A program made the position numbers and the translations under genes. A stretch of DNA of 64,000 nucleotides from Jatrophihabitans sp. GAS493 (GTDB taxonomy: Bacteria; Actinomycetota; Actinomycetes; Mycobacteriales; Jatrophihabitantaceae). Below the pieces are notes generated by a model. The model saw nothing but the letters and a program-made list of their open reading frames with translations, ran no database searches and had not been told where the DNA came from. Below are positions 12,352 through 54,855 of this stretch, piece by piece. Position 1 is the first letter of the stretch. Each line of letters begins with the position of its first letter. The DNA lies in the NCBI RefSeq assembly GCF_900230215.1, contig NZ_LT907982.1:744001-808000 (forward strand), written 5' to 3'.

Positions 12352-14068
12352 GATTTCTCGGGCTCGCTACGCGGCGCTCTACGGCCCGACGGTGGGTGAT
12401 CGGGTGCGGCTGGCCGACACCGATCTCTTCATCGAGGTCACCGAGGATCGGGCCGGCGGCCCGGGCGGCCGGGCCGGCGACGAGGCCCTCTTCGGCGGCG
12501 GCAAGGTGATCCGCGAGTCGATGGGGCAGTCCGTCGCCACCCGAGCCGACGGGACGCCCGACCTGGTGATCACCGGCGTCGTCGTCCTCGACCACTGGGG
12601 CATCATCAAGGCCGACGTCGGCGTCCGCGACGGGCGCATCGTCGCCCTCGGCAAGGCCGGCAACCCGGACACGATGGACGGCGTGACGCCGGAACTGGTG
12701 ATCGGCCCGTCGACGGAAGTGATCGCCGGCAACGGCATGATCCTCACCGCCGGCGGCGTCGACAGTCACGTCCACCTCATCGCCCCGCAGCAGATCCCGG
12801 TCGCCATCGCGGCCGGCATCACCACGCTGATCGGCGGCGGGGTCGGCCCGGCCGACTCGACCAAGGCGACCACCGTCACCTCGGGCTCATTCTGGCTCGA
12901 GGCGATGATGCAGTCGCTCACCGAGTGGCCGATCAACGTCGTGCTCCTCGGCAAGGGGAACACCGTCTCCCGGGAGGGTCTCTGGGAGCAGTTGCGGGCC
13001 GGAGCCGCCGGCTTCAAGCTGCACGAAGACTGGGGCACCACCCCGGCCGCCATCGACGCCTGCCTGAGCGTCGGCCTGGCCGCGGGGGTGCAGACCGCGA
13101 TCCACACCGACACGCTGAACGAGGCCGGATACCTCGAGTCCACCCTGGCCGCCATCGACGGCCGCCCAATCCACACATACCACACCGAGGGGGCCGGCGG
13201 CGGGCACGCACCGGACATCATCCGGGTTGCCGCACACGCGAATGTGCTGCCTTCCTCGACCAATCCGACCCGGCCGTACACGCAGAACACGCTGCATGAG
13301 CACCTCGACATGCTGATGGTCTGCCACCACCTGAAATCCTCCATCCCCGAAGACCTCGCCTTCGCCGAGTCGCGGATCCGTCCGTCGACGATGGCCGCCG
13401 AGGATGTGCTGCACGACCTCGGCGCGATCTCGATGATCGGCTCCGACTCACAGGCGATGGGGCGCATCGGTGAGACGATCATCCGCACCTGGCAGACCGC
13501 GCATGTCATGAAGCAGCGCCGCGGATCGTTGCCGGGCGACACGGTCGCCGACAACCAGCGGGCTCAGCGCTACGTCGCCAAGTACACGATCGCGCCGGCC
13601 GTGGCCCACGGCCTGGACGGCGAGATCGGCTCCGTCGAGGTCGGGAAGCTGGCCGACCTGGTGCTCTGGGAGCCCGCATTCTTCGGGGTTTCGCCGCATC
13701 TCGTGCTGAAGTCGGGGGTGATCGCGTGGGCCAACATGGGTGACGCCAACGCCTCCATCCCCACTCCGCAGCCGCAGCTGCCCCGGCCGATGTTCGGTGC
13801 CTTCGGCGGGCTGGCCGCGCGCCTCGGGCTGCAGTTCGTCTCGCCCCTCTCGCTGGAGAGCGGCCTGCCCGAACGCTGGAACAGCGATCGCCCACTCGTC
13901 CCGACCCTCGACATCGCCGCTCGCACGAAGGCGGACATGCCGCAGAACACGGCACTTCCGAGGATCGATGTCGATGCTGACACCTTCGAGGTGCGCGTCG
14001 ACGGAGAGCTCATCGAACCCCAACCGGCGACCGAACTGCCGATGGCCCAACGCTATTTCCTCTTCTGA
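12344..14068 (+). CDS. ureC: Urease alpha (catalytic) subunit
   Basis: The 574-residue catalytic subunit hydrolyses urea to ammonia and carbamate at a dinuclear nickel site. Visible ligands are VDSHVHLI (two His), the carbamylated lysine in [20 protein letters not shown] and the later His of [13 protein letters not shown], with the mobile-flap MVCHHL carrying the flap cysteine and catalytic His, and GSDSQAMGR (Asp ligand). Length is exactly as expected. In this genome it should consume the urea released by allantoicase and ureidoglycolate breakdown. Confidence 0.97.
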
Positions 14069-37260: not shown

Positions 37261-37344
37261 AGATCGGCAAAGATCCCGTGCTACGTGCACCCCAGCGCGC
37301 ACATAGCCGGATCGTTCGGTGAAGCGAGGCGTCCGTGCCTGTTT

Positions 37345-37455
37345 GGGGGCTTACCACTTGGGGCCTGACCAGTTGGGGCCTGACCAGTTGGGGGCTGACC
37401 AGTTGGGGGCTGACCAGTTGGGGGCTGACCAGTTGGGGGCTGACCAGTTGGGGGC
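37345..37455. repeat. 15-base minisatellite, seven copies plus a partial copy
   Basis: Seven head-to-tail 15-base units, consensus GGGGGCTGACCAGTT, run from 37345 to 37449, with six more bases of an eighth. Units 4-7 are identical; unit 1 differs most. Because 15 is a multiple of three, every frame is open and encodes a pentapeptide repeat (LGADQ, WGLTS or, on the other strand, VSPQL), but no frame has a credible start and context. It lies in a 531-base gene-free stretch (37201-37731) together with three strong hairpins. Confidence 0.85.
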
Positions 37456-37731: not shown

Positions 37732-39717
37732 CTACCCCTTCGTGGCCAGTTTCAGCGTGAGGGTGTTGGCGTTGCCCGGGAAGATCGCATTGAGCAGATC
37801 GGTCAGCGCGCCACAGTTGGCGAGCTTGCCGATGGCGAACTTGCTGCTGAGGGTGCCACCGGTGAACGGGCTGAACTCGCCCTTTCCGTTGGAGGCCAGG
37901 TGAATGCTGACCGGCGACGCGGTCGTGCAGTTACCTGAGGTCAGCGGCAGCACACCAAGAGCCTTGACCGACTTGACGCCGAGGTTGGCCTTCAGATCCG
38001 CCGTCACATCCGTCGCACCCGCAGCCAACTGCCCCGTGAGCAGACCCACCTGCGTGAACGACGACACGATCGTGGTCGGGATGAACCCGAACAGCGACGC
38101 ATTCACCGTGATATCCGGAATCGAGGACGTACCGGTGAACGAACCACCCTTGAGGTTGACATCCGTCGAGATCGTCCCCGGACCAACCTTGCCCGTCCCA
38201 TTCACCGTCGGCAGACCAATCGTCCCCGTGGCACTGAAATCGATGTGCGTCAGGTTCGGAGCCGGAGTCGGCGAGGGCGTGGCAACCGGTACGACCCTGG
38301 TGTCGACGATGTTCGAGGTCGCCGGGCCGTGGCCCGGGTCGCCGGAACTGACGCAGCACGTAAAGGTGTTTGCGACGTCAGCGTGGACGTGATGGGTAAC
38401 GCCGACGGTCGGAAACGTGACAGCGCAAGACCCGGACGTGTAGCAGAGGGTCGCACCGGTCGCGTCGTCCACGTATGTGATTGACGTGCCCAATGGCTGC
38501 CCACTCCGCGGCCCGCTCGTGTAGAGGGCGGTCGCGGTGTAGGTGGCCGGCGAACCAAGTTCGACCGTGCTCGGACCGATCAGTTGGACGGACACGGAGT
38601 ATGGGGCGAGATCACCGACCGGTGTGGGCGTCGGTGGTACCGGCGTCGGCTGGGGCGTCGGAAGCACCGATGCGATGACGACGGTGAGGGTGTTCGACAC
38701 ATTGTCCCGTCCGCCGTAGTCCAGCCCGTTCCAGCTCTCCGTCGTAGCGATCAGGTTGTGCGTGCCGGAGTTGAGGTAGAACGTCCCCGTGAAAGTGGTC
38801 GAGATCCCGTTGGGCGCGGTGCTCGTTCCCAGGAGCGTGGTGCCGTCGTAGAACGAGATGTGCCCGACCGGAAGTTGCGCCGTCGCTGTGTAGGTGAACG
38901 GTGTGGCCTCAGCCGCCGCGCTGGTCGGACCGGAGAGCACCACATGCTGGTTCACCGGAATCGGCGTGCCTCGCGGTGTCGGCGGTACGGGCGTCGGCGT
39001 CGGGAAGTCGAGCACCGGCGTCGGCGGCGCAGTTGTCGGCGTCGGGTCATGAACGGTGTTCGAACTGACCGGAATCGAGGCCAGGACGAGGTTGTCGCCG
39101 GCGTTGAACTTGCAGGGGATGATCTGCTTGGCCGCCGGGAGCACGCTGGTGCCGGCCGCGTTCTTCGGGTTGAAGACCGCGTTCACCGTCGTCGCGGTCA
39201 GCACGGCGGTGCCGGCCGAGGTGAGGGTCGCGGTCGGCGAGGGGCCGGTGGCCGTGATGGTGAACTCCGGACCGTCTCCGTTCTCGTCCTGCGTCTGCGG
39301 CACCGGGGTGACCGGTACCGTGGCGACGATCGAGAGATCCGACGGCGATGCATTGGTGAGCGTCGCGCCGGCCGTGATCGAGCCCTCGAGGGTCGTCGCC
39401 CCCAGGATCTGCAGTGCGTCGGTGGTGGCGACGTTCAGCACGATGCTGATGCTGAAGTTCAGCAGCTGGACGGTGTCACCAACCACCGCCCTGTCGGGAA
39501 TCGTGGCACTGATCTTGGCGTCATACGACTCGGCGCCGGCGACCGGAATGGTGCAGGTAGTGGGAACCGTCGCGTCGATCGTCGCTGCAGCGGCCGGCGA
39601 TCCACCGGCGTTCAACATCGCGAACGCGCCGGCGGCGAGTCCCACAACTCCCAGCCCGGCAATTGATCTAGATCTGCTCCACCGCTTCAGCGATGAGGGC
39701 GTGGCTTTACCACCCAT
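37732..39717 (-). CDS. Secreted modular protein A (R domain, two Ig-like domains, C domain)
   Basis: Start 39717 is chosen because GGGAG lies eight bases upstream; the product has 661 residues. After a signal peptide (cleavage near SPAAAAT) come: an R domain (about 46-215; [30 protein letters not shown], a second Cys in IIPCKFNAGD); a Pro/Thr linker; two Ig-like beta domains (VVLSGPTSAAAEATPFTYTA; VQLIGPSTVELGSPATYTA), the second rich in Cys; another PTP linker; and a C domain (about 490-661; [27 protein letters not shown], two Cys). The R domain recalls DUF6801-type actinobacterial secreted domains. There is no sortase motif or membrane tail. A surface or matrix role is inferred. Confidence 0.8.
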   Translation of the reverse strand: MGGKATPSSLKRWSRSRSIAGLGVVGLAAGAFAMLNAGGSPAAAATIDATVPTTCTIPVAGAESYDAKISATIPDRAVVGDTVQLLNFSISIVLNVATTDALQILGATTLEGSITAGATLTNASPSDLSIVATVPVTPVPQTQDENGDGPEFTITATGPSPTATLTSAGTAVLTATTVNAVFNPKNAAGTSVLPAAKQIIPCKFNAGDNLVLASIPVSSNTVHDPTPTTAPPTPVLDFPTPTPVPPTPRGTPIPVNQHVVLSGPTSAAAEATPFTYTATAQLPVGHISFYDGTTLLGTSTAPNGISTTFTGTFYLNSGTHNLIATTESWNGLDYGGRDNVSNTLTVVIASVLPTPQPTPVPPTPTPVGDLAPYSVSVQLIGPSTVELGSPATYTATALYTSGPRSGQPLGTSITYVDDATGATLCYTSGSCAVTFPTVGVTHHVHADVANTFTCCVSSGDPGHGPATSNIVDTRVVPVATPSPTPAPNLTHIDFSATGTIGLPTVNGTGKVGPGTISTDVNLKGGSFTGTSSIPDITVNASLFGFIPTTIVSSFTQVGLLTGQLAAGATDVTADLKANLGVKSVKALGVLPLTSGNCTTASPVSIHLASNGKGEFSPFTGGTLSSKFAIGKLANCGALTDLLNAIFPGNANTLTLKLATKG

Positions 39718-39736
39718 GGACATAACTCCCTCGATT

Positions 39737-39797
39737 GGCGGCCGCGACGGGCCCCGTGCCATCGGTCAACTTAAGAGATGACTGTGTCGCCACCGCG
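39737..39797 (-). promoter_or_regulatory. Structured 5' leader of gene A
   Basis: In the mRNA, the 12-base arm at 39786-39797 pairs with 39737-39748 (ten pairs including one G-U; one G-G mismatch and an unpaired outer end). The 5' arm begins five bases after the -10 box, so it is at or near the mRNA 5' end, and the ribosome site follows the 3' arm. The intervening part shares ATGGCACGGGG with the leader of gene B. Confidence 0.6.
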
Positions 39798-39802
39798 CCT
39801 TG

Positions 39803-39831
39803 AAGTTACGTCCTGTTGCACCCAAATACAA
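39803..39831 (-). promoter_or_regulatory. Promoter of gene A (family type)
   Basis: Read on the minus strand: TTGTAT (39826-39831), 17 bases, TAACTT (39803-39808). Genes B to E carry the same arrangement at the same place. From 39832 to 39972 I see nothing further. Confidence 0.65.
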
Positions 39832-39972
39832 CAGTTTGCGCCAAGGCAATATACCGTTATTACCGGTACTGCCTCGACTGCCGAGTAGTCAAGTTCTCTA
39901 TTTCCCAATCAACGTGAATCGTCAACGAAGTTCGAGGGAATCTCGACGGCGATGCCAGTGCGTTCGCAGCAC

Positions 39973-40015
39973 AATGGCCGGGCATCACCGTACTTGGCGG
40001 CGATACCCGGCCATT
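39973..40015 (-). terminator. Terminator of gene B
   Basis: AATGGCCGGG (39973-39982) and CCCGGCCATT (40006-40015) pair perfectly, with an extra ATC/GAT after one mismatch. It lies 50 bases beyond the gene B stop. It isolates B from A. Confidence 0.65.
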
Positions 40016-40065
40016 GGCCTTACTTCTTACCTACTGGTGGACTTACTTATCGACGAGCGATCTGG

Positions 40066-41496
40066 TCAGCTGTCCTGCGCAACCAGGTCAAGCGTCAGGG
40101 TGTTGTTCGGACCCGGGAAGATGACGTTCAACAGCGGCGTCAGCAGCCCGCAGTTGGCCAGATTCCCGATAGCGAACTTGCTGCTGACGGTGCCACCGGT
40201 GAACGGGCTGAACTCGCCCTTTCCGTTGGAGGCCAGGTGAATGCTGACCGGCGATGCGGTCGTGCAGCTACCGGAGGTCAACGGCAGCACACCGAATGCC
40301 TTGACCGACTTGACTCCGAGGTTCGCCTTGAGGTCGGCTGTCACGTCCTTCGCCCCCGGTGCCAGCTGACCGGTGAGGTCACCGAGCTGCGTGAAGGAGG
40401 AGACGATCGTGGTCGGGATGAAGCCGAAGAGCGAGGCCTTCACCGTGATGTCCGGGAAGGTGGACTTCCCGGTGAATGAACCACCCTTGAGGTTCACGTC
40501 GGTCGAGATGGTGCCTGGACCAACCTTTCCGCTGCCGTTGACCGTCGGAAGTCCGATGGTCCCCGTCGCGTCGAAGTTGATGTGAGTGATGTTCGGCGCC
40601 GGAGTCGGCGACGGCGTACCACCCGGGGTCGGCGTCACCTTCGGCGTCGCAACCGGAGTCGGCGTCACCTTCGGCGTCGCAACCGGAGTCGGCGTCACCT
40701 TCGGCGTCGCAACCGGAGTCGGCGTCACCTTCGGCGTCGCAACCGGAGTCGGCGTCACCTTCGGCGTCGCAACCGGAGTCGGCGTCACCTTCGGCGTCGC
40801 AACCGGAGTCGGCGTCACCTTCGGCGTCGCAACCGGAGTCGGCGTGCTGCCGGCGGTCACCGGAATCTTGGCCAGTACGAGATTGTCACCGGCGTTGAAG
40901 CTGCACGGGATCTTCTGCTTGGCGACCGGAAGCACACTCGTACCGGACGCGTTCTTCGGGTCGAAGACGGCATTCACGGTGGTCGCCGTCAGCGTCGCGG
41001 TGCCGGCCGAGGTCAGCGTCGCCGCTGGCGAAGGGCCGGTTGCGGTGATCGTGAACGCCGGGCCGTCGCCGTTCGCATCCTGCGTCTGCGGCACCGGCGT
41101 GGATGGCACGGTGGCCACGATGGACAGATCGGACGGGTCGGCGTTGGTCAGCGTGGCGCCGGCGGTGATCGAGCCCTGCAGGGTCGTCGCCCCGAGAATC
41201 TGTAGCGCGTCAGTGGTCGCGACATTCAGCAGGATGCTGATCTTGAAGTTATCCAGCTTGACCGAGTCACCGACCTTCGCAGTGTCCGGCACGGTGGCGG
41301 TGATCTTCGCGTCGTACTGCTCCGCGCCAGCCACCGGAATCGTGCAGGTGGTGGGGACGGTCGCGTCGATCGTCGCGGCCGAGGCCGCAGATCCGCCGCC
41401 CATCAGCGCGGCAGTGACGCCGGCGGTGAGACCGACGACCGTCACACCCGCAATGGATTTCATGGTTCTACGCCGCACAAGAGGTGCTGGCATCAT
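40066..41496 (-). CDS. Secreted modular protein B (R domain, [10 protein letters not shown] linker, C domain)
   Basis: AAGGGAG lies just before a double ATG (41496 and 41493); from the first, the product has 476 residues. A signal peptide ends near GSAASAAT. One R domain (about 45-220) contains [30 protein letters not shown] and a second Cys in [11 protein letters not shown] linker of seven identical ten-residue units ([10 protein letters not shown]) leads to a C domain (about 310-476; [35 protein letters not shown], two Cys). Its C domain is almost the same as that of A, including a 66-base identical stretch of DNA. It is exported and has no anchor motif; function is unknown. Confidence 0.8.
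40628..40845. repeat. 30-base tandem repeat encoding the linker of protein B
   Basis: Seven 30-base units (40628-40837) and eight bases of an eighth are identical to each other, including third codon positions. They encode [10 protein letters not shown] on the minus strand. Perfect identity indicates recent expansion or continual homogenisation. Copy number probably varies between strains without breaking the frame. Confidence 0.9.
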
Positions 41497-41512
41497 AGAT
41501 CTCCCTTTGATA

Positions 41513-41571
41513 TACGGCGAGACGCGAACGAGCCCCGTGCCCATTTCTTGGTAGCTGTCTATATCGCCGTA
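41513..41571 (-). promoter_or_regulatory. Structured 5' leader of gene B
   Basis: In the mRNA, TACGGCGA (41564-41571) pairs with TCGCCGTA (41513-41520) over eight perfect pairs. The first arm starts five bases after the -10 box; AAGGGAG follows the second arm after six bases. The loop contains ATGGGCACGGGGCTCGT, close to that of A. Confidence 0.65.
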
Positions 41572-41576
41572 ATTTG

Positions 41577-41605
41577 AACCTACGGACCAGTAGCAAGAAA
41601 TTCAA
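41577..41605 (-). promoter_or_regulatory. Promoter of gene B (family type)
   Basis: Minus strand: TTGAAT (41600-41605), 17 bases ending in TCCG, TAGGTT (41577-41582). In the rest of the 371-base gap to gene C I see only the C terminator and AT-richer sequence. Confidence 0.65.
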
Positions 41606-41736
41606 CTCCTTAAGCAATTCAGATTTTGTCGGCCTTACGAACTATCCAGCTATCGGAGGGATGCTGCGTTTGTCCACGTATTTGTTCCGTGTTCTGTGGT
41701 CGCTTGTACGCCTAGTAGGCGGATTCCCATAAACGT

Positions 41737-41779
41737 AAAGGCCGGGTTACGCCCGCCTGACGGACGCAACCCGGCCTTT
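41737..41779 (-). terminator. Terminator of gene C
   Basis: AAAGGCCGGGTT (41737-41748) and AACCCGGCCTTT (41768-41779) form a perfect 12-pair stem with A/T ends on both sides, so it can stop transcription in either direction. It lies 88 bases beyond the gene C stop. Confidence 0.8.
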
Positions 41780-41867
41780 AATGCCCAGCTAACTTAGCGG
41801 GTTCAGCAATTGCGGAATATACCCAGCGAATTGATATCTCTAACGCAAATTCGCGTGGCATTCATAA

Positions 41868-43589
41868 TTACGTGACGGTAATCGTTCCCAGCACCAGGCT
41901 CTGGCCGGAGTCGAACGAGCAGGGAATCTTCTGCTGCGTCGCGGAGAGCACGCTCGTGCCGGCGGCGTTCTTCGGATTGAAGACGGCGCTGACAGTGGTC
42001 ACCGAGAGCACGGCCGAGCCGGCCGAGGCCAGCGTCGCATAAGGCGCGGTACCGGTCGCCACGACGCTGAATGCCGGGCCGTCACCATTGGCGTCGACCG
42101 TCTGTGGCACGGCGGTCGTGGGCACGGTGGCCGTCGCCTTCAACGCTGTCGGAGTGGCGTGGGTCAGGGTGACCCCGGCCGTCACCGAGCCGGCGATGGT
42201 GGTCGCCCCCAGCAACTGGAGGGCGTCGGTGGTGGGGACGCTCAACAGGATGCTGATCTTGAGGCTGGAGAGCGTCACGGCCGCGCCGACCTTACCGCTG
42301 ATCGGCAGAATTCCGGTGACCTTGGCGACGTAGTGCTGAACTCCGGCAACCGGAATGGTGCAGGTCGCGTTGAGCGTCTTGCTCACCGCGACCGTGGTGG
42401 CCGGGGTGACGGTGATCGATCCGAGCACCAAGCTCTGACCGGCGTCGAAGGTGCAGGCGATCTTCTGCTTGGCTACCGGAAGGACACTGGTTCCGGCCGC
42501 GTTCTTCGGGTTGAAGACCGCGCTGACGGTTGTCGCCGACAGCACGGCGGTGCCGGTCGAGGTGAGCTTGGCCGTCGGAGCTGTGCCGGTCGCGGTGATC
42601 GTGAAGGGCGGCCCGTCGCCGTTCACGTCGACCGTCTGCGGAACAGCCGTGGTCGGGACGGTCGCGGTGGTGGAGAGTGTGGCCGGAGTGGCGTGGGTCA
42701 GCGATGTCCCGGCGGTGATCGACCCGGCAATCGTGGTGGCGCCGAGGATCTGCAGTGCGTCAGTGGTTGCCACGTTCAGCAGGATGCTGATCTTCAAGCT
42801 CGACAGCGTGACCGAGGCTCCGACCTTGGCGGTTATCGGCAAGGTGCCGGTGATCTTCGCCGCGTACTTCTGCGCGCCGGCGACCGGGATCGTGCAGGTG
42901 GTGTTGAGCGTCTTGCTCACCGCGGTGGTCGTTGCCGCCACCGGGATGGTTGCCAGCACCAGACTCTGCCCCGTGTTGAAGGAGCAGGCGATCGCCTGCT
43001 TGGCCACCGGTAGAACGCTCGTGCCGGCCGCGTTCTTCGGGTTGAAGACCGCACTCACGGTTGTCGCGGTCAGAGTCGCGGTGCCAGCCGACGTGAACGT
43101 GGCCGTCGGCGAGGTGCCGGTTGCGGTGATGCTGAACGCCGGGCCGTCACCGTTGGCATCCACGGTCTGCGGAACCGCGGTGGTGGGCACCGTCGCGGTG
43201 ATCGAGAGCGGCGATGGCGTGGCATGGCTCAGCGTGGCGGCCGACTTTATGGAACCCTGCAGCGTGGTCGCGCCCAGGATCTGGAGTGCGTCAGTGGTGG
43301 CGACGTTGAGCTTCACCGAGATGGAGAAGTTCTGCAATGCCACCTTGTCACCTACCTTCGCACTCGTCGGGATGGTGGCCTTCACGACGGCTGTGTATTG
43401 CTGCGCACCGGCCACCGGGATCGTGCAGGTGGTGTTCAGCGTCTTGCTGATGGTCGTGGTGGTGACGGCGGACGCGACGGCGGCACCACTGACAACGGCG
43501 ACCGCGGCGGTGGCGAGGCCGGCGACCAGGCCGACCACCGTCACACCGGATACGGATTTGATCAGCTTTCGCTTCTCAAATGAATCCAT
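41868..43589 (-). CDS. Secreted modular protein C (three tandem R domains)
   Basis: Start 43589 lies six bases after AAGGGAGAG; the product has 573 residues. The signal peptide (VVGLVAGLATAAVAVVSGAA) ends near AVASAV. Then follow three R domains of about 175 residues each, every one with (T/A)TCTIPVAG(A/V)Q, LQ(I/L)LGATT, TAVPQTVD(A/V)NGDGP, VFNPKNAAGTSVL and a second Cys (IACSF, IACTF, IPCSF). No Pro-rich linker and no C domain are present. The two Cys per domain probably form a disulfide. It is the only member made of R domains alone, which shows that R is an independent folding unit. Confidence 0.8.
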   Translation of the reverse strand: MDSFEKRKLIKSVSGVTVVGLVAGLATAAVAVVSGAAVASAVTTTTISKTLNTTCTIPVAGAQQYTAVVKATIPTSAKVGDKVALQNFSISVKLNVATTDALQILGATTLQGSIKSAATLSHATPSPLSITATVPTTAVPQTVDANGDGPAFSITATGTSPTATFTSAGTATLTATTVSAVFNPKNAAGTSVLPVAKQAIACSFNTGQSLVLATIPVAATTTAVSKTLNTTCTIPVAGAQKYAAKITGTLPITAKVGASVTLSSLKISILLNVATTDALQILGATTIAGSITAGTSLTHATPATLSTTATVPTTAVPQTVDVNGDGPPFTITATGTAPTAKLTSTGTAVLSATTVSAVFNPKNAAGTSVLPVAKQKIACTFDAGQSLVLGSITVTPATTVAVSKTLNATCTIPVAGVQHYVAKVTGILPISGKVGAAVTLSSLKISILLSVPTTDALQLLGATTIAGSVTAGVTLTHATPTALKATATVPTTAVPQTVDANGDGPAFSVVATGTAPYATLASAGSAVLSVTTVSAVFNPKNAAGTSVLSATQQKIPCSFDSGQSLVLGTITVT

Positions 43590-43608
43590 TGGAACTCTCC
43601 CTTGGTTA

Positions 43609-43665
43609 GCGGCGACCACTCGCAAGCCGGGTGCTCGCTACGGTAAGTAACTGTCCGGTCGCCGC
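43609..43665 (-). promoter_or_regulatory. Structured 5' leader of gene C
   Basis: In the mRNA, GCGGCGAC (43658-43665) pairs perfectly with GTCGCCGC (43609-43616); an inner GCGAGC/GCTTGC hairpin is possible. The first arm starts seven bases after the -10 box and AAGGGAG follows the second arm. Confidence 0.7.
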
Positions 43666-43672
43666 AGGAAGT

Positions 43673-43701
43673 AACCTACGGACTACTCTGCGCAATTACA
43701 A
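43673..43701 (-). promoter_or_regulatory. Promoter of gene C (family type)
   Basis: Minus strand: TTGTAA (43696-43701), 17 bases ending in TCCG, TAGGTT (43673-43678). Confidence 0.65.
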
Positions 43702-43777
43702 CGGTTTGCGTGACTTATTCGAATTTTACGATTCGGCCGCATTTGTCAGCATCCTGCCGCGTGGGTCGCCCCCGCTC

Positions 43778-43827
43778 TGTCTGCCGAACAACCGGTATCG
43801 GGCTGGAGACCGGTCGTTCGGCAGACA
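43778..43827 (-). terminator. Terminator of gene D
   Basis: Arms 43778-43796 and 43809-43827 match over 19 bases with one exception, which becomes a G-U pair in minus-strand RNA but an A-C mismatch in plus-strand RNA. This favours use by gene D, whose stop is 39 bases away. Confidence 0.75.
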
Positions 43828-43866
43828 AAGCAGCATGGTGTGGAGCGGCGGCGATGCGAAGGCGGA

Positions 43867-46830
43867 CTAGCTGGTCTTGGCTGCTGACAGTTTGAGGGTG
43901 AGGGTGTTGTTCGCACCCGGAACGACCAGGTTGAGCAGATCAGTCAACGGACCGCAGTTGGCCAACTTCCCGATGGTGAACTTGGAGGTGACGGTGCCGC
44001 CCTGGAGCAGGCTGAACTTGCCGGTGCCGTCGCTGGCGAGATGGATCTTCGCCGGGGTGGCCGTCGCGCAGGTGCTTGAGGCGAGCGATATGCCGAGCGT
44101 CTTGAGCGAGACGATCCCCAACCGTGCGGTCAGGTCGACCGAGATGTCCCTGGCGTTTGGAGCGACGCTGCCGGAGAGCCCGCCGACCTGTAGGTAGGAG
44201 GCGACCAGCGTCACCGGGACGAACCCGAATACCGTCGAGTTGATGGTGAAGTTCGGAACGGTGGTCTGGCCGGTGAAATGACCGGCGGTTAGGTCCACGT
44301 CCACCGAGATCAGTGCCCCGGAGATCTTCGCCGTCCCGTTGACGCTGGGGACGGTCGCCGATCCGGTCGCCGTGTAGCTGGCCTTAATGTGTGCCGGCGG
44401 CACAACAGGCGTCGGAAGAGGCGTCGGAAGAGGCGTCGGAAGAGGCGTCGCAACCGGCGTCGGATGCGCAGTGGGGATAGGAGTACCCGTCGGCGACGGG
44501 ACCGGCGTTGGCGTCGGTAGCGGGACCGGCGTGCCACCAATGGGCGTCGGGTTCGGCGTCGGTGTCGGCTCTGGTACTCCCCCGGGCGGAACCGTGCCAA
44601 TGGCCGCGTTGTCTCCCGCATTGAAAACACACGGAATGATCCGCTTCGCCGGCGGCAGGACGCTCACCCCGGCTGCGTTCTTCGGGTCCAGGGTCAGCGC
44701 GAAGGTGGTGGGGAAGAGGCTGATGAACCCGTTGGCGGTGGCCTGCAGGGTCAACGTTCCGCCGCTGGCGACCAGGTCGAACGGTGGACCGTCGCCATTT
44801 TCGTTCATCTCCTGCGGTACCGCTGTCGAGGGGAACGTGCCGTTGAAGGCGAGGGCGGACGGGTTGGCATTAGTGGCCGAGAGCCCGAGATCGAGGCTGC
44901 CTTCGACGGTGGTCGCCCCCAAGATCTGGAAGACGTCGGTGGTGGCGGCGTTACCCGGGATGCGCACATAGAAGTCCTTCAGCGTGACCGTGTCACCCGC
45001 CCTGACCGCGGTCGGCACGTTGGCGCCGATGTGCAACTGGTAGTCCTCGCTGCCGGCGACCGGGACGGCGCAGGTGACGCCGATGTCGGAGTTGAAGTTG
45101 GTCGAGGGCGGTGGCGGCCCGGGCGTGGGTGGCGGACCGCTCGGCGTCGGTGGCGGGCCACTCGGCGTCGGGGTGGGGGGTGGCGCGCCCGGCGTCGGGG
45201 TCGGGGGTGGCCCGCCCGGCGTCGGGGTGGGCGAGCCACTCACCGTGGTGGTGAAGATGTCCGAGATGGCCGGGGCATAGCCACTGGCTACCGGCCCGCT
45301 GCCCCAGGTCGCGGACGCCACGATGTTGTGCACCCCTCCGGCATCGGTGAACGTCGCCTGGCAGGAGGCGACGGTATCCGTGGAGGCCAACTGCAGCGGC
45401 GGGCAGAGGACCGTCGACGCTGATCCATCCACCTCGCTGAAGGAGATCGTCGCCCCCGGGGCACTCGCTACCGCGGTGTAGGTCGCCAGCCCGTCGACGC
45501 TGCTCGGGCCGTCGAGGGTGAGGGTCGTCGCCGTGATCGTGCCGCTACCGGTGATCGTGATGTGGCCCAGGTCGTACGTCTGATTGGAGCCGAGGGAACA
45601 GGGAATTGCCCGCTTACTCAACGGCAGCGTGCTCTGCCCCGCCTCATTCTTCGGATCGATGACCAGCGAGAAACCAGTGGGCGAGAGCACCGTCGATCCG
45701 GGTGCCAGCATGATCGCCGTAGTAGAGGTCGCGACACCGCTCACGTCGAACGGAGGTCCGTCCCCGTTGACGTCCACATCCTGCGGAACGGAGGCGGAGA
45801 TGGGCGCGACGGCGGTCAGCCTGCCGGGACTGGCGTCACCTATCGAGGCCGAGAAGCTGATCGATCCGTCGAGGGTGGTGCTGCCCAGAATCTGCAGCGC
45901 GGTCGTGGTCTGCGCGGTGAACGGCACAGTCAGCTTCACGTTCTGCAGGGCGACCGTGTCTCCGACGGCGGCGGTGGGCGGATAGGTCGCCTGAACCTTC
46001 GCGTCGTACTGCTGGGATCCGACGACCGGCAGGACGCAGGTGACGGGCACCGTCGTGTCGATCGTTCCGGCCGGAGCCGGGGTCGGGGTCGGCCCGGGAG
46101 TCGGTGAGTCGGTCGGTCCGGGCGTGATGTGCGGCGTCGGAAGGGGCGGCGTGGGGGCCGGAGTGACCGGCCCGGAGGACGGTATGGGTCCGTTGGTCAC
46201 CGAGATGCTCGCCAGCACTTGGCTGCCGGCGTCGAAGGAACACGGGATATTCCGCTTGGCGGCCGGCAGCACGCTCGCACCGCTGGCGCTCTTCGGGTCG
46301 AAGAAGGCGCTGACCGTGGTCGCGGTGAGCACCGCCGTACCGGCTGACGTGAGAGTCGCCGTCGGCGACGGGCCGGAGGCGCTGATGGTGAAGGCCGGGC
46401 CGTCTCCGTTCTCGTCCTGCTCCTGCGGTACAGCGGTTGTCGGGACCGTGGCGGTGATGGAGAGGTCTGACGGCGTCGCGTGGGTGAGGCTCGCGCCGGC
46501 CGTGATCGACCCCTCCAGGGTCGTCGCCCCAAGGATCTGCAGGGCGTCAGTGGTGGCGACGTTGAGTCGGATGCTGATGTTGAAGTCCTGCAGGGTGACG
46601 CTCTGTCCGACGACGGCGTCACTCGGGATCGTCGCGGTGACTCGAGCGTCGTACTCCTCGCTGCCGGCGACCGGAATCGTGCAGGTAGTCGGAATCGTGA
46701 CATCGATGGTGTCGGCTGAAGCCGGGCCGGCGCCGGCGACCAGGACGGAGGTGAGGCCGGCGACGAGGCCAACGATGGCGACCCCGGTGACTCTTCTCAT
46801 TGTGCGCTCGGACCGGAATGCACTCGGCAT
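43867..46830 (-). CDS. Secreted modular protein D (three R domains, Ig-like domain, C domain)
   Basis: Start 46830 lies eight bases after GAGGGAG; the product has 987 residues. After a signal peptide (cleavage near GPASADT) the order is R1 (about 40-220), PTP linker, R2 (about 258-432, more divergent), an Ig-like domain (LTLDGPSSVDGLATYTAVAS) with two Cys, a long GGPPPTPTPG-type linker, R3, a further PTP/PLPTP linker, and the C domain (TVPSVNGTAKISG, FGFVPVTLVASYLQVG, two Cys). All parts found in A, B and C occur here, so it is the most complete member. No anchor motif is seen. A structural surface role is inferred. Confidence 0.8.
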   Translation of the reverse strand: MPSAFRSERTMRRVTGVAIVGLVAGLTSVLVAGAGPASADTIDVTIPTTCTIPVAGSEEYDARVTATIPSDAVVGQSVTLQDFNISIRLNVATTDALQILGATTLEGSITAGASLTHATPSDLSITATVPTTAVPQEQDENGDGPAFTISASGPSPTATLTSAGTAVLTATTVSAFFDPKSASGASVLPAAKRNIPCSFDAGSQVLASISVTNGPIPSSGPVTPAPTPPLPTPHITPGPTDSPTPGPTPTPAPAGTIDTTVPVTCVLPVVGSQQYDAKVQATYPPTAAVGDTVALQNVKLTVPFTAQTTTALQILGSTTLDGSISFSASIGDASPGRLTAVAPISASVPQDVDVNGDGPPFDVSGVATSTTAIMLAPGSTVLSPTGFSLVIDPKNEAGQSTLPLSKRAIPCSLGSNQTYDLGHITITGSGTITATTLTLDGPSSVDGLATYTAVASAPGATISFSEVDGSASTVLCPPLQLASTDTVASCQATFTDAGGVHNIVASATWGSGPVASGYAPAISDIFTTTVSGSPTPTPGGPPPTPTPGAPPPTPTPSGPPPTPSGPPPTPGPPPPSTNFNSDIGVTCAVPVAGSEDYQLHIGANVPTAVRAGDTVTLKDFYVRIPGNAATTDVFQILGATTVEGSLDLGLSATNANPSALAFNGTFPSTAVPQEMNENGDGPPFDLVASGGTLTLQATANGFISLFPTTFALTLDPKNAAGVSVLPPAKRIIPCVFNAGDNAAIGTVPPGGVPEPTPTPNPTPIGGTPVPLPTPTPVPSPTGTPIPTAHPTPVATPLPTPLPTPLPTPVVPPAHIKASYTATGSATVPSVNGTAKISGALISVDVDLTAGHFTGQTTVPNFTINSTVFGFVPVTLVASYLQVGGLSGSVAPNARDISVDLTARLGIVSLKTLGISLASSTCATATPAKIHLASDGTGKFSLLQGGTVTSKFTIGKLANCGPLTDLLNLVVPGANNTLTLKLSAAKTS

Positions 46831-46849
46831 GAGTTCGCTCCCTCGAACC

Positions 46850-46908
46850 GCGACGAGCACCGAGGGGCAACCCCGCGTTGCCCCCACCTGCGGATGCGCA
46901 CTCGTCGC
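46850..46908 (-). promoter_or_regulatory. Structured 5' leader of gene D
   Basis: In the mRNA, GCGACGAG (46901-46908) pairs perfectly with CTCGTCGC (46850-46857). Inside is a second hairpin, GGGGCAAC/GTTGCCCC (46864-46871 with 46877-46884). The first arm starts seven bases after the -10 box; GAGGGAG follows the second arm. Confidence 0.7.
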
Positions 46909-46915
46909 AGGGTTG

Positions 46916-46944
46916 AAGCTACGGAGCAGTAACCCAGAACACAA
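46916..46944 (-). promoter_or_regulatory. Promoter of gene D (family type)
   Basis: Minus strand: TTGTGT (46939-46944), 17 bases ending in TCCG, TAGCTT (46916-46921). Confidence 0.65.
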
Positions 46945-47033
46945 TGGTTTTACATGCCGAACTGCTGGTAATTGGAAATTCTTCCAATACCGGGTGGTAC
47001 GTCAACGTTTTATTGGTATTTTTGGACACCCGT

Positions 47034-52869: not shown

Positions 52870-54096
52870 ATGAAATTGACCGATGACGTACTGGCCGGGC
52901 TCGACCAGGCCCTGGCCGACGACGACGCGGCCCGAACCCAGCGCTACCCCGGCCCACCGGCCGGGCGGCAGCCGGTGCACACCGCCTACGTCCCGGCCGA
53001 TCTGTTCAGCCCGCAGACGCCGCTCGTCTGGGGTACGGCGGCGCTCACCGCGATGGACGAATTCGGGCCCCTCCCGGGCACGAGCAGCGAGATCGAGGAT
53101 CGGGTACGGGCGAAGCTGGTGGCCGAGCCGATCGAGGATGTCCGTATCGACTTCGAAGACGGCTACGGCCTGCGTTCGGACGCCGAGGAGGATCGCGATG
53201 TCCTCACCGCCGCCGACGCGCTCGCCCAGCTGCTCAGCACCGGCTCCGCCCCGCCGTTCAGCGGCCTGCGGATGAAGTCCTTCGAGGGGCCGGAGCTGCG
53301 GCGCCGAGGCGTGCGCACGCTGGACGCCTTCATCGGCGCGCTGCTGGACAGCGGCGGCTGGATTCCGCCGGGGTTCCGGGTGACGCTGCCCAAGGTGACG
53401 TCGGTGCCCCAAGTCGAGGCGATGGCCGTTCTCTGCTCGGCGTTGGAGGCGGCCTACGGGATCGAACCGCTGCGGTTGGAGCTGCAGGTGGAGACACCTC
53501 AGGCCATCCTGGGGGCCGACGGCACAGCGCTCATCGCCCCGATGATCCACGCCACCGCTGGTCGCTGCGTCGGACTGCACTACGGCACCTACGACTACAG
53601 CGCGTCGGTCGGCGTGGCTGCCGCCTTCCAGAGCATGGAGCATTCGGCGGCCGACTACGCGAAGTCGGTGATGCAGGTGGCCGCCGCCGGTACCGGAGTC
53701 GCGGTCAGTGACGGTTCGACGAACATCCTGCCGATCGGCGACCGGGCCCAGGTGCAGTCGGCCTGGGAACTGCACTCACGACTGGTGACCCGCTCGTTGG
53801 AGCGCGCGTTCTACCAAGGCTGGGACCTGCACCCGGCGCAGTTGCCGACCCGCTTCGCGGCGACCTACACCTTCTACCGTCAGGGAGTGCAGGCCGCCGG
53901 GGAACGGCTGCGCAACTACCTCGGCCGGGCGGCGAGCGGTGTCCTCGACGAACCGGCGACGGCGGCCGCGCTGGCCGGCTATCTGGTGCGCGGCCTGGAC
54001 GCCGGCGCGGTCGATGAGGCCGAGGTGCGCAGCACCTCCGGTGTCGAGCGGGATGAGCTGGAGCGATTGATGCGACGAACGCCGGCTACTCGCTGA
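52870..54096 (+). CDS. DUF6986, HpcH/CitE-like aldolase-family protein
   Basis: The 408-residue protein resembles the HpcH/HpaI/CitE TIM-barrel lyases: VRIDFEDGYG, LRLELQVETPQAIL (acidic metal-binding positions) and CVGLHYGTYDYSA. I recognise it as the actinobacterial DUF6986 type, frequently next to aceB and ureide genes. It follows aceB by 30 bases on the same strand. Related lyases act on glyoxylate-derived or malyl compounds, so it may form or use glyoxylate; it is a candidate for the missing ureidoglycolate-cleaving step. The last 11 bases overlap the convergent gene E. Confidence 0.75.
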   Translation: MKLTDDVLAGLDQALADDDAARTQRYPGPPAGRQPVHTAYVPADLFSPQTPLVWGTAALTAMDEFGPLPGTSSEIEDRVRAKLVAEPIEDVRIDFEDGYGLRSDAEEDRDVLTAADALAQLLSTGSAPPFSGLRMKSFEGPELRRRGVRTLDAFIGALLDSGGWIPPGFRVTLPKVTSVPQVEAMAVLCSALEAAYGIEPLRLELQVETPQAILGADGTALIAPMIHATAGRCVGLHYGTYDYSASVGVAAAFQSMEHSAADYAKSVMQVAAAGTGVAVSDGSTNILPIGDRAQVQSAWELHSRLVTRSLERAFYQGWDLHPAQLPTRFAATYTFYRQGVQAAGERLRNYLGRAASGVLDEPATAAALAGYLVRGLDAGAVDEAEVRSTSGVERDELERLMRRTPATR

Positions 54097-54784
54097 GCGT
54101 CAGGCTCAGCGCCAGCGTGTTGGAGACACTCTGGAAGAGGCGGCTGAGGGAGGTGTTCAGCGACCCGCAGCCGACCAGTGGCCCGGTGGCGAAGGTGCCG
54201 ACCATCTTGGCCGCGCCGGCCGCGCGGAAGCGCGCGTTCCCGTCAGTGCTGAGGATGATGTCGATCGGGGCCTGCACCCGGCAGCCCGGCCGCGACAGCG
54301 GCATCGACCCGAAGGCGTTGATCGCCTTGAGAGCGAGTACCACGGTGATCTCCGCCGTCACCTCGCCGGCCGGATTGAGACTCCCGGTCAGCGGCCCGGA
54401 CTGACGCAGGGCCGCGGTCACCACGGAGGGGACGAAGCCGAAGATGGCTCCGGTGATCTTGATGTCGGGCAGTGTCGCCTTGCCGGTCAACTCGCCGGTG
54501 CGCAGGTTGACGTCGGCGGCCAGGGTTCCCGGCTTCAGCGTCCCGTAACCCTCTATCGCCGGCAGCTCAAGCGAGCCGCCCACCGCGTAGACGATGTGAA
54601 TCGGGGCCACGATCGGCGCCATGATCGGCGCACCGGCCGCCGGTTTCGCCGCTGCCGTGAGCAGGCCGAAAGTGAGTAGAGAGACGGTGAGCAGGGAGAC
54701 GGTGAGCAGCCGCACCGAGAGCCGCCGCACGGCAGGCGGCACGGTGGAGCGGCGACGGTATCCGTCGCTAGCCACTGCAGGCAC
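54086..54784 (-). CDS. Secreted protein E (C domain alone)
   Basis: Start GTG 54784 follows GGGGGAGG by four bases; the product has 232 residues. A long signal peptide (repeated LLTVSLLTVSLLTFGLLT) ends near AAAKPAAGA. The rest is one C domain like those ending A, B and D: LELPAIEGYGTLKPG, ADVNLRTGELTGKATLPDI, FGFVPSVVTAAL, and Cys in SRPGCRVQ and VGCGSLN. No R domain or linker occurs. It is the minimal member of the family, 7 kb from the array, and shares its promoter type. Confidence 0.75.
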   Translation of the reverse strand: MPAVASDGYRRRSTVPPAVRRLSVRLLTVSLLTVSLLTFGLLTAAAKPAAGAPIMAPIVAPIHIVYAVGGSLELPAIEGYGTLKPGTLAADVNLRTGELTGKATLPDIKITGAIFGFVPSVVTAALRQSGPLTGSLNPAGEVTAEITVVLALKAINAFGSMPLSRPGCRVQAPIDIILSTDGNARFRAAGAAKMVGTFATGPLVGCGSLNTSLSRLFQSVSNTLALSLTLSE

Positions 54785-54826: not shown

Positions 54827-54855
54827 AAGCTACTGACGCCGATGGTCGATCACAA
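54827..54855 (-). promoter_or_regulatory. Promoter of gene E (family type)
   Basis: Minus strand: TTGTGA (54850-54855), 17 bases, TAGCTT (54827-54832). Two bases further, ACGGA and TCCGT can close a short 5'-proximal hairpin before the GGGGGAGG ribosome site. Confidence 0.6.

Follow-up and report, generated by a model that had tools for sequence, protein, structure and literature searches.

The mRNAs of ompA and papA from Escherichia coli, as well as aprE from Bacillus subtilis, hold 5'-terminal stem-loops that act as mRNA stabilisers. Among mycobacterial RNAs, the small RNA DrrS is reported to carry a stem-loop that begins at the transcription start base and to have a half-life of more than 6 h; this structure is described as being disturbed when at least two bases are added at the 5' end and as raising a reporter about three-fold, and its authors present it as the first such stability determinant characterised in mycobacteria (PMC5360333). 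Purified RppH from B. subtilis, in turn, is reported not to act unless two or more bases at the 5' end are unpaired (PMC3997798). Here, we describe a candidate for such a determinant in the leaders of four genes, A to D, whose products each contain either one DUF6801 stretch or three and which lie on the minus strand of a 64,000-nucleotide stretch of Jatrophihabitans sp. GAS493 (NZ_LT907982.1, positions 744,001–808,000 of the forward strand; hereafter, the window, whose positions serve as coordinates). These leaders hold a helix, P1, closing a 5'-terminal RNA domain that would protect the mRNA in the manner of ompA, aprE and DrrS, a role to which we give a probability of about one half.

The genome holding the window (4.88 Mb, a single contig) was compared with that of a sister species of the same genus, G001, which has orthologues of A–D, of the paralogues E1–E6 and of gene H, as well as two more genes, the additional F and the odd G. 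Class 1 comprises nine leaders (A, B, C and D here; A, B, C, D and F in G001) and class 2 the ten leaders of E1–E5 from both species, giving 19 in all. E6 and H were included in the folding of orthologue alignments, the loop census, the leader-folding run and the count of ANTAR hexaloops, and excluded from the P1 arm-pairing tests, the GGA count, the orthologue pair-keeping count, and the G-U count and permutation ranks. F has no orthologue in this genome and is absent from the orthologue-alignment z-scores and the pair-keeping count, whereas G, which is not preceded by the family promoter, was excluded from the leader tests. Transcription starts (+1) are putative throughout, being assigned by a sequence rule as the purine at the seventh or eighth base after the -10 box.

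P1 is found in all nine class 1 leaders, with an interior of 35–43 nt. In gene A (all leader, promoter and gene coordinates refer to the minus strand), the 5' arm GCGGTGGCGAC starts at the putative +1 (39786–39796) and faces GTCGCGGCCGC (39738–39748), followed by the ribosome site GAGGGAG and the start codon (39721–39732). The arms of B are TACGGCGA (41564–41571) and TCGCCGTA (41513–41520), upstream of AAGGGAG and the start codon (41494–41507); those of C are GCGGCGACC (43657–43665) and GGTCGCCGC (43609–43617), upstream of AAGGGAG and the start codon (43587–43603); and those of D are GCGACGAG (46901–46908) and CTCGTCGC (46850–46857), upstream of GAGGGAG and the start codon (46828–46844). The arms had been proposed in the original prediction, made on the same DNA, and all of them were found in place: those of B, C and D pair perfectly, and the helix of A is, as announced, longer and imperfect, with one G-G mismatch and one U-G pair. 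Its spacings needed revision. The 5' arm begins 5–8 nt downstream of the final T of the -10 box, close to the 5–7 bases first given. The gap between the 3' arm and GGGAG is exactly 7 nt in eight of the nine leaders and 8 nt in the ninth, instead of 4–7. The first base pair falls at the putative +1 in 8/9 class 1 leaders, and by +4 in all 19 leaders of both classes. With its place fixed relative to both the -10 box and GGGAG, the domain thus runs from what is probably the first transcribed base to a point at a set distance upstream of the ribosome site.

The P1 helix is real. The duplex energy of cognate arms averages -20.3 kcal/mol, compared to -14.9 kcal/mol for arms taken from different genes, and the cognate arrangement ranks first among the 24 permutations within this genome, among the 120 within G001, and among the 120 obtained when the families are pooled. 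None of 20000 free permutations of the nine leaders matched the cognate pairing, a figure that treats orthologues as independent. Against shuffled arms, p ranges from 0.004 to 0.056 over the nine leaders, with the D leader of the sister species as the weakest (0.056). The arms thus differ between genes and pair within each one, and the original claim that the RNA structure is under selection is supported by the arm permutations, by changes that keep the pairing and by G-U pairs, which make up 10 of the 132 pairs of P1 and the inner hairpin P3. Two compensatory changes can be read off directly: a P1 pair of gene C that reads C-G in this genome reads U-A in G001, and the outermost P3 pair, A-U in the B leader, is G-C in that of C. 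When B and C of both species are aligned (four sequences), 94.6% of the cells pair, as opposed to 32–46% with the partner slid, and the covariation score of this alignment is reached by only 2 of 500 shuffles. Three of its 14 pairs are doubly changed, a count that is not decisive by itself because 51 of 500 letter shuffles equal it. Over nine orthologue pairs, 48 of the 90 substituted pair-cells still pair, compared to 32.4 expected (both directions), as do 16 of the 25 doubly changed ones; D, whose leaders align badly, is poor in this count. Pairing itself is therefore conserved in P1 of the nine class 1 leaders, which is what a 5' stabiliser calls for. A covariance model built from B and C of both species and searched over eight loci recovered D of this genome (25.9 bits, E 0.0007), A of the sister species (25.9 bits) and, weakly, A of this genome (16.2 bits, E 0.14), none of the three having been used in building it; three unrelated places follow at 11.3 bits or less.

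Within P1, the class 1 leaders hold a second element, P3, a hairpin with a pentaloop of the C-ACGGG-G type. It reads GGC-ACGGG-GCC in A (39750–39760), AATGGGC-ACGGG-GCTCGTT in B (41527–41545), GCGAGC-ACCCG-GCTTGC in C (43622–43638) and GGGGGCAAC-GCGGG-GTTGCCCCT in D (46863–46885). A hairpin is predicted at this place in 9/9 class 1 leaders, with a four-base loop in sister D. In place of P1, paralogues E1–E5 hold a similar pentaloop hairpin near the 5' end; the five inner pairs of this hairpin begin, in both species, 8–9 nt after the -10 box. Altogether, pentaloop hairpins closed by C-G are present in 18 of 23 leaders across both architectures, with the loops ACGGG (nine), ATGGA (three), and ACGGA, AACGG, AACGA, ACCCG, AACCG and GCGGG (one each). 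The exact C-ACGGG-G occurs in 9/23 leaders and in 0.3% of shuffled ones. The broader motif appears in 4.9% of shuffled leaders, a flattering rate as the motif (A first, or GCGG) was drawn from the observed loops; position 1 is A in 17 of the 18 loops, which the same definition flatters, and position 4 is G in 16. A possible second inner hairpin, P2, was seen in C and sister A and not in B, and was left out. A class 2 model searched with stricter filters in 150 genomes of the order matched the two genomes of this genus, plus one weak match (E 0.04, half of the model).

Both classes of leaders lie behind one promoter motif, in which TTG stands at a fixed distance from GTARNTT. It precedes 25 genes, of which this genome contributes 11 with DUF6801 plus a short one, and G001 contributes 12 plus a short one; the two short-gene promoters entered only this promoter table. 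In the window, it corresponds to TTGTAT-17-TAACTT for A (39803–39831, part of TTG-N19-GTARNTT), TTGAAT-17-TAGGTT for B (41577–41605), TTGTAA-17-TAGGTT for C (43673–43701) and TTGTGT-17-TAGCTT for D (46916–46944). The motif is near-private to the DUF6801 family: TTGT-N18-GTARNTT has ten matches in this genome, 10/10 at the family (counting one short relative), and 13 in G001, 12 at the family, while the reversed control pattern has two and four, respectively; across 24 genomes of the taxonomic family, matches number 10 and 13 in the genus and 0–2 elsewhere. The looser TTG-N19-GTARNTT, which includes B and E6, is at background (16 and 18 matches compared to 19 and 18 for controls). Within the spacer, an A is conserved in 21/25 promoters and a C in 19/25. 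In many spacers, a TTACT-like half faces an AGTA-like half located at the -10 box; together they form a near-palindrome to which a regulator might bind. WhiB7, from a family reported to be exclusive to Actinobacteria (PMC6282962), is described as acting where an AT-rich block precedes the -35 box (PMC3905903); this genome encodes five WhiB-family genes, and the corresponding A/T bias is weak across the 25 promoters.

A 5' stabiliser suits these observations, since both classes share a helix near the likely 5' end and the ribosome site of class 1 lies outside it. According to this model, the class 1 leader would fold into a closed 5'-terminal domain, with the first transcribed bases locked in P1, the P3 hairpin inside and the ribosome site left free at its fixed 7-nt distance; in E1–E5, the pentaloop hairpin close to the 5' end would serve instead. 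Such a base-paired end would be expected to hinder both the removal of pyrophosphate and the access of RNase E or J from the 5' end (the genome encodes an RNase E/G), resulting in long-lived mRNAs for the DUF6801 family. Protection from decay, one of the roles originally proposed, is thus the one that fits best, and the steps leading from leader structure to mRNA half-life are inferred. The class 2 leaders, the recurring pentaloop hairpin, the near-exclusive use of the promoter and the G001 orthologues were beyond the reach of the original prediction.

Several observations weigh against this model. The background is GC-rich, and short helices are common in such sequence. The first pair forms by +4 in 48–87% of shuffled leaders; 5'-end pairing alone is consequently weak evidence. 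Folding z-scores of whole leaders are modest (-0.1 to -2.35 for A–D, +0.5 to -2.35 over the nine), orthologue alignments average -1.7 over 11 leaders, compared to -1.1 where their coding sequences begin and -1.0 in the stretches upstream, and two of these upstream controls fold strongly (A, -4.3; H, -6.0). P1 of B has eight pairs here and six in the sister species. The covariance model did not list sister D and F among the eight loci, and in a whole-genome search it did not list D of this genome and placed a chance match in an open frame (22.2 bits) above A (16.2 bits), so that it is not a clean detector. In class 2, P3 competes with pairing to the first codons: it appears in the predicted fold of 7/10 leaders alone and of 3/10 with 30 nt of coding sequence added, and in several of these leaders the first pair is formed with coding sequence and not in P3. 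E6, H and the short gene have the family promoter and neither P1 nor P3, the leaders of E6 and H being longer and differently folded. A standard sigma-70 consensus scan detected 0/4 of the A–D promoters, and the label of -10 box rests for this reason on the family motif. Finally, the element is known from two species only, and letter conservation between them in the B (93%) and E2 (99%) leaders exceeds what a pure stabiliser needs.

This last point, together with the recurrence of the loop, hints at a bound factor in addition. The main rival to the stabiliser is a trans-acting RNA-binding protein that would read the P3 pentaloop, with P1 only presenting it, so that translation or decay of the whole family would be set together. 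We regard this as possible, on the tentative side. The presence of P3-type loops over two architectures and the frequency of the exact C-ACGGG-G speak for it, as does the fact that the B and E2 leaders are nearly identical in the two species, more so than the sequences flanking them. Candidate protein families are also encoded: CsrA (81.8 bits), whose gene adjoins frames that we read as a flagellar hook-associated protein and FliW (L116 131–1461), and three ANTAR matches. However, no regulator is tied to these loci, and the shuffle rate and loop position that favour this proposal are the flattered ones noted above. Under the site rules described for CsrA, a GGA in a hairpin loop is essential (PMC7652899), but it is found in only 4/18 P3 loops, those of the four E2/E3 leaders, and is depleted in the 19 leader bodies (12 compared to 20.9 expected, one of the 12, in an A leader, being its own ribosome site); a CsrA target was therefore rejected. 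ANTAR targets, described as two stem-loops with hexaloops bearing A1 and G4 (PMC8164766), were rejected as well, as A1/G4 hexaloop hairpins number 11 in the 23 leaders compared to 7.4 by chance and form no consistent pair. A bolder version, in which the leaders would constitute a lineage-specific regulatory RNA class, with one pentaloop hairpin, two architectures, the near-private promoter and a single trans-acting protein tuning the paralogous family, seems doubtful; its recogniser would perhaps be ANTAR-like, given the A1 and G4 of the loop.

It is unlikely that the leaders have no specific RNA function, whether they reflect shared ancestry and chance folding of GC-rich sequence or inverted repeats acting as DNA operators. 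The modest z-scores agree with such an explanation, substitutions are similarly frequent at paired (119/749) and unpaired (93/549) positions, and the conserved class 2 GCCGC-N5-GCGGC would suit an operator; against it stand the cognate-arm test, the pair-keeping changes, the G-U pairs, the fixed spacing, and the conservation of the B and E2 leaders, which exceeds that of the sequence on either side. The least probable role, also raised in the original prediction, is a translation gate (riboswitch, thermometer or attenuator) hiding the ribosome site: the constant distance between P1 and GGGAG shows that helix and ribosome site are placed together, and several predicted folds pair part of that site, but gating by P1 is disfavoured because the site lies outside P1 in 9/9 leaders, its predicted openness ranges from 0.19 to 0.91 over the 19 leaders without pattern, and neither an Rfam match nor, in the four window leaders, a terminator-like stem was listed, a rejection that concerns P1 and leaves other helices aside. 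No Rfam match overlaps a leader, at gathering level over the whole window or at relaxed level over 39700–47000 and loci L043, L045, L046 and L047, which agrees, for the stretches searched, with the earlier remark that they fit no known riboswitch class. An open frame spans the leader of B and, in the window, shares its reading frame; it was not accepted as coding, since the alignment with the sister species has an indel there.

Gene A (37732–39723) encodes a protein of 663 aa, B (40066–41496) one of 476 aa, and C (41868–43589) and D (43867–46830), with three DUF6801 stretches each, proteins of 573 and 987 aa. They hold Pro/Thr-rich linkers, share a C-terminal end in A, B and D, and apparently carry a signal-like N-terminus, judged by eye, suggesting that they may be secreted. 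They may also be abundant. The first 230 residues of B are predicted to form mostly beta strands (mean pLDDT 78.8), and the best PDB match of this model, 3lso (E 8e-4, TM 0.40), names no function. Within B, a 30-base repeat of 7.8 copies (40612–40845) encodes a protein linker, and a 15-base tandem repeat of 7.5 copies lies downstream of A (37343–37455). The family promoter is also found at 54827–54855, before a short gene (about 54086–54784) whose product resembles, by eye, the C-terminal part of the family and whose short leader shows, by eye, neither helix; its orthologous promoter lies at G001:C1:486173–486201. Of the 17 DUF6801 matches in the genome, eight are in A–D, six in the E1–E6 cluster (L043), one in gene H (L044), and two are weak outliers. 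E1–E5 (L043 173–13582; L045) are located between DnaJ-like and ClpB-like frames, named by eye, with E6 beyond. DUF6801 was present in 5/61 genomes searched, and the same genes were seen only in one other, G001. Two pattern scans of genome contigs for further family members gave 51 and 39 matches and confirmed no relative, and 12 loci with DUF6801 genes in three genomes from two other families of the order showed by eye no similar leader, many of their starts being uncertain. A literature search on DUF6801 found nothing, and titles and the beginnings of abstracts revealed no work on these leaders. Elsewhere in the window, an Rfam match to 5_ureB_sRNA (12507–12803, minus strand; 65.1 bits, gathering score 40) may only reflect a urease gene.

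If the stabiliser model holds, a matching pair of promoter and 5' RNA domain would control a multigene protein family as a single unit, and the paralogues of one genome would represent natural compensatory mutants, offering a ready test of 5'-end structure against mRNA life in Actinobacteria. Like the ompA, papA and aprE stabilisers, these leaders combine a paired 5' end with a ribosome site outside the helix. Unlike them, they enclose a pentaloop hairpin in a domain closed by a long-range helix, recur throughout a gene family that shares a single promoter motif, and are known from sequence alone. The target leaders of CsrA/RsmA, as described (PMC7652899), similarly combine a hairpin loop with the ribosome site, and CsrA is encoded here, but their GGA core is absent from 14/18 P3 loops. 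With the ANTAR-target RNAs, as described (PMC8164766), they share A1 and G4 in most P3 loops, in a genome that encodes ANTAR proteins, although P3 has five-base loops instead of six and forms one hairpin instead of two. Finally, DrrS, a small RNA where the present leaders belong to protein-coding mRNAs, is, as reported (PMC5360333), likewise actinobacterial, with a stem that starts at the start nucleotide, the position inferred here for P1.

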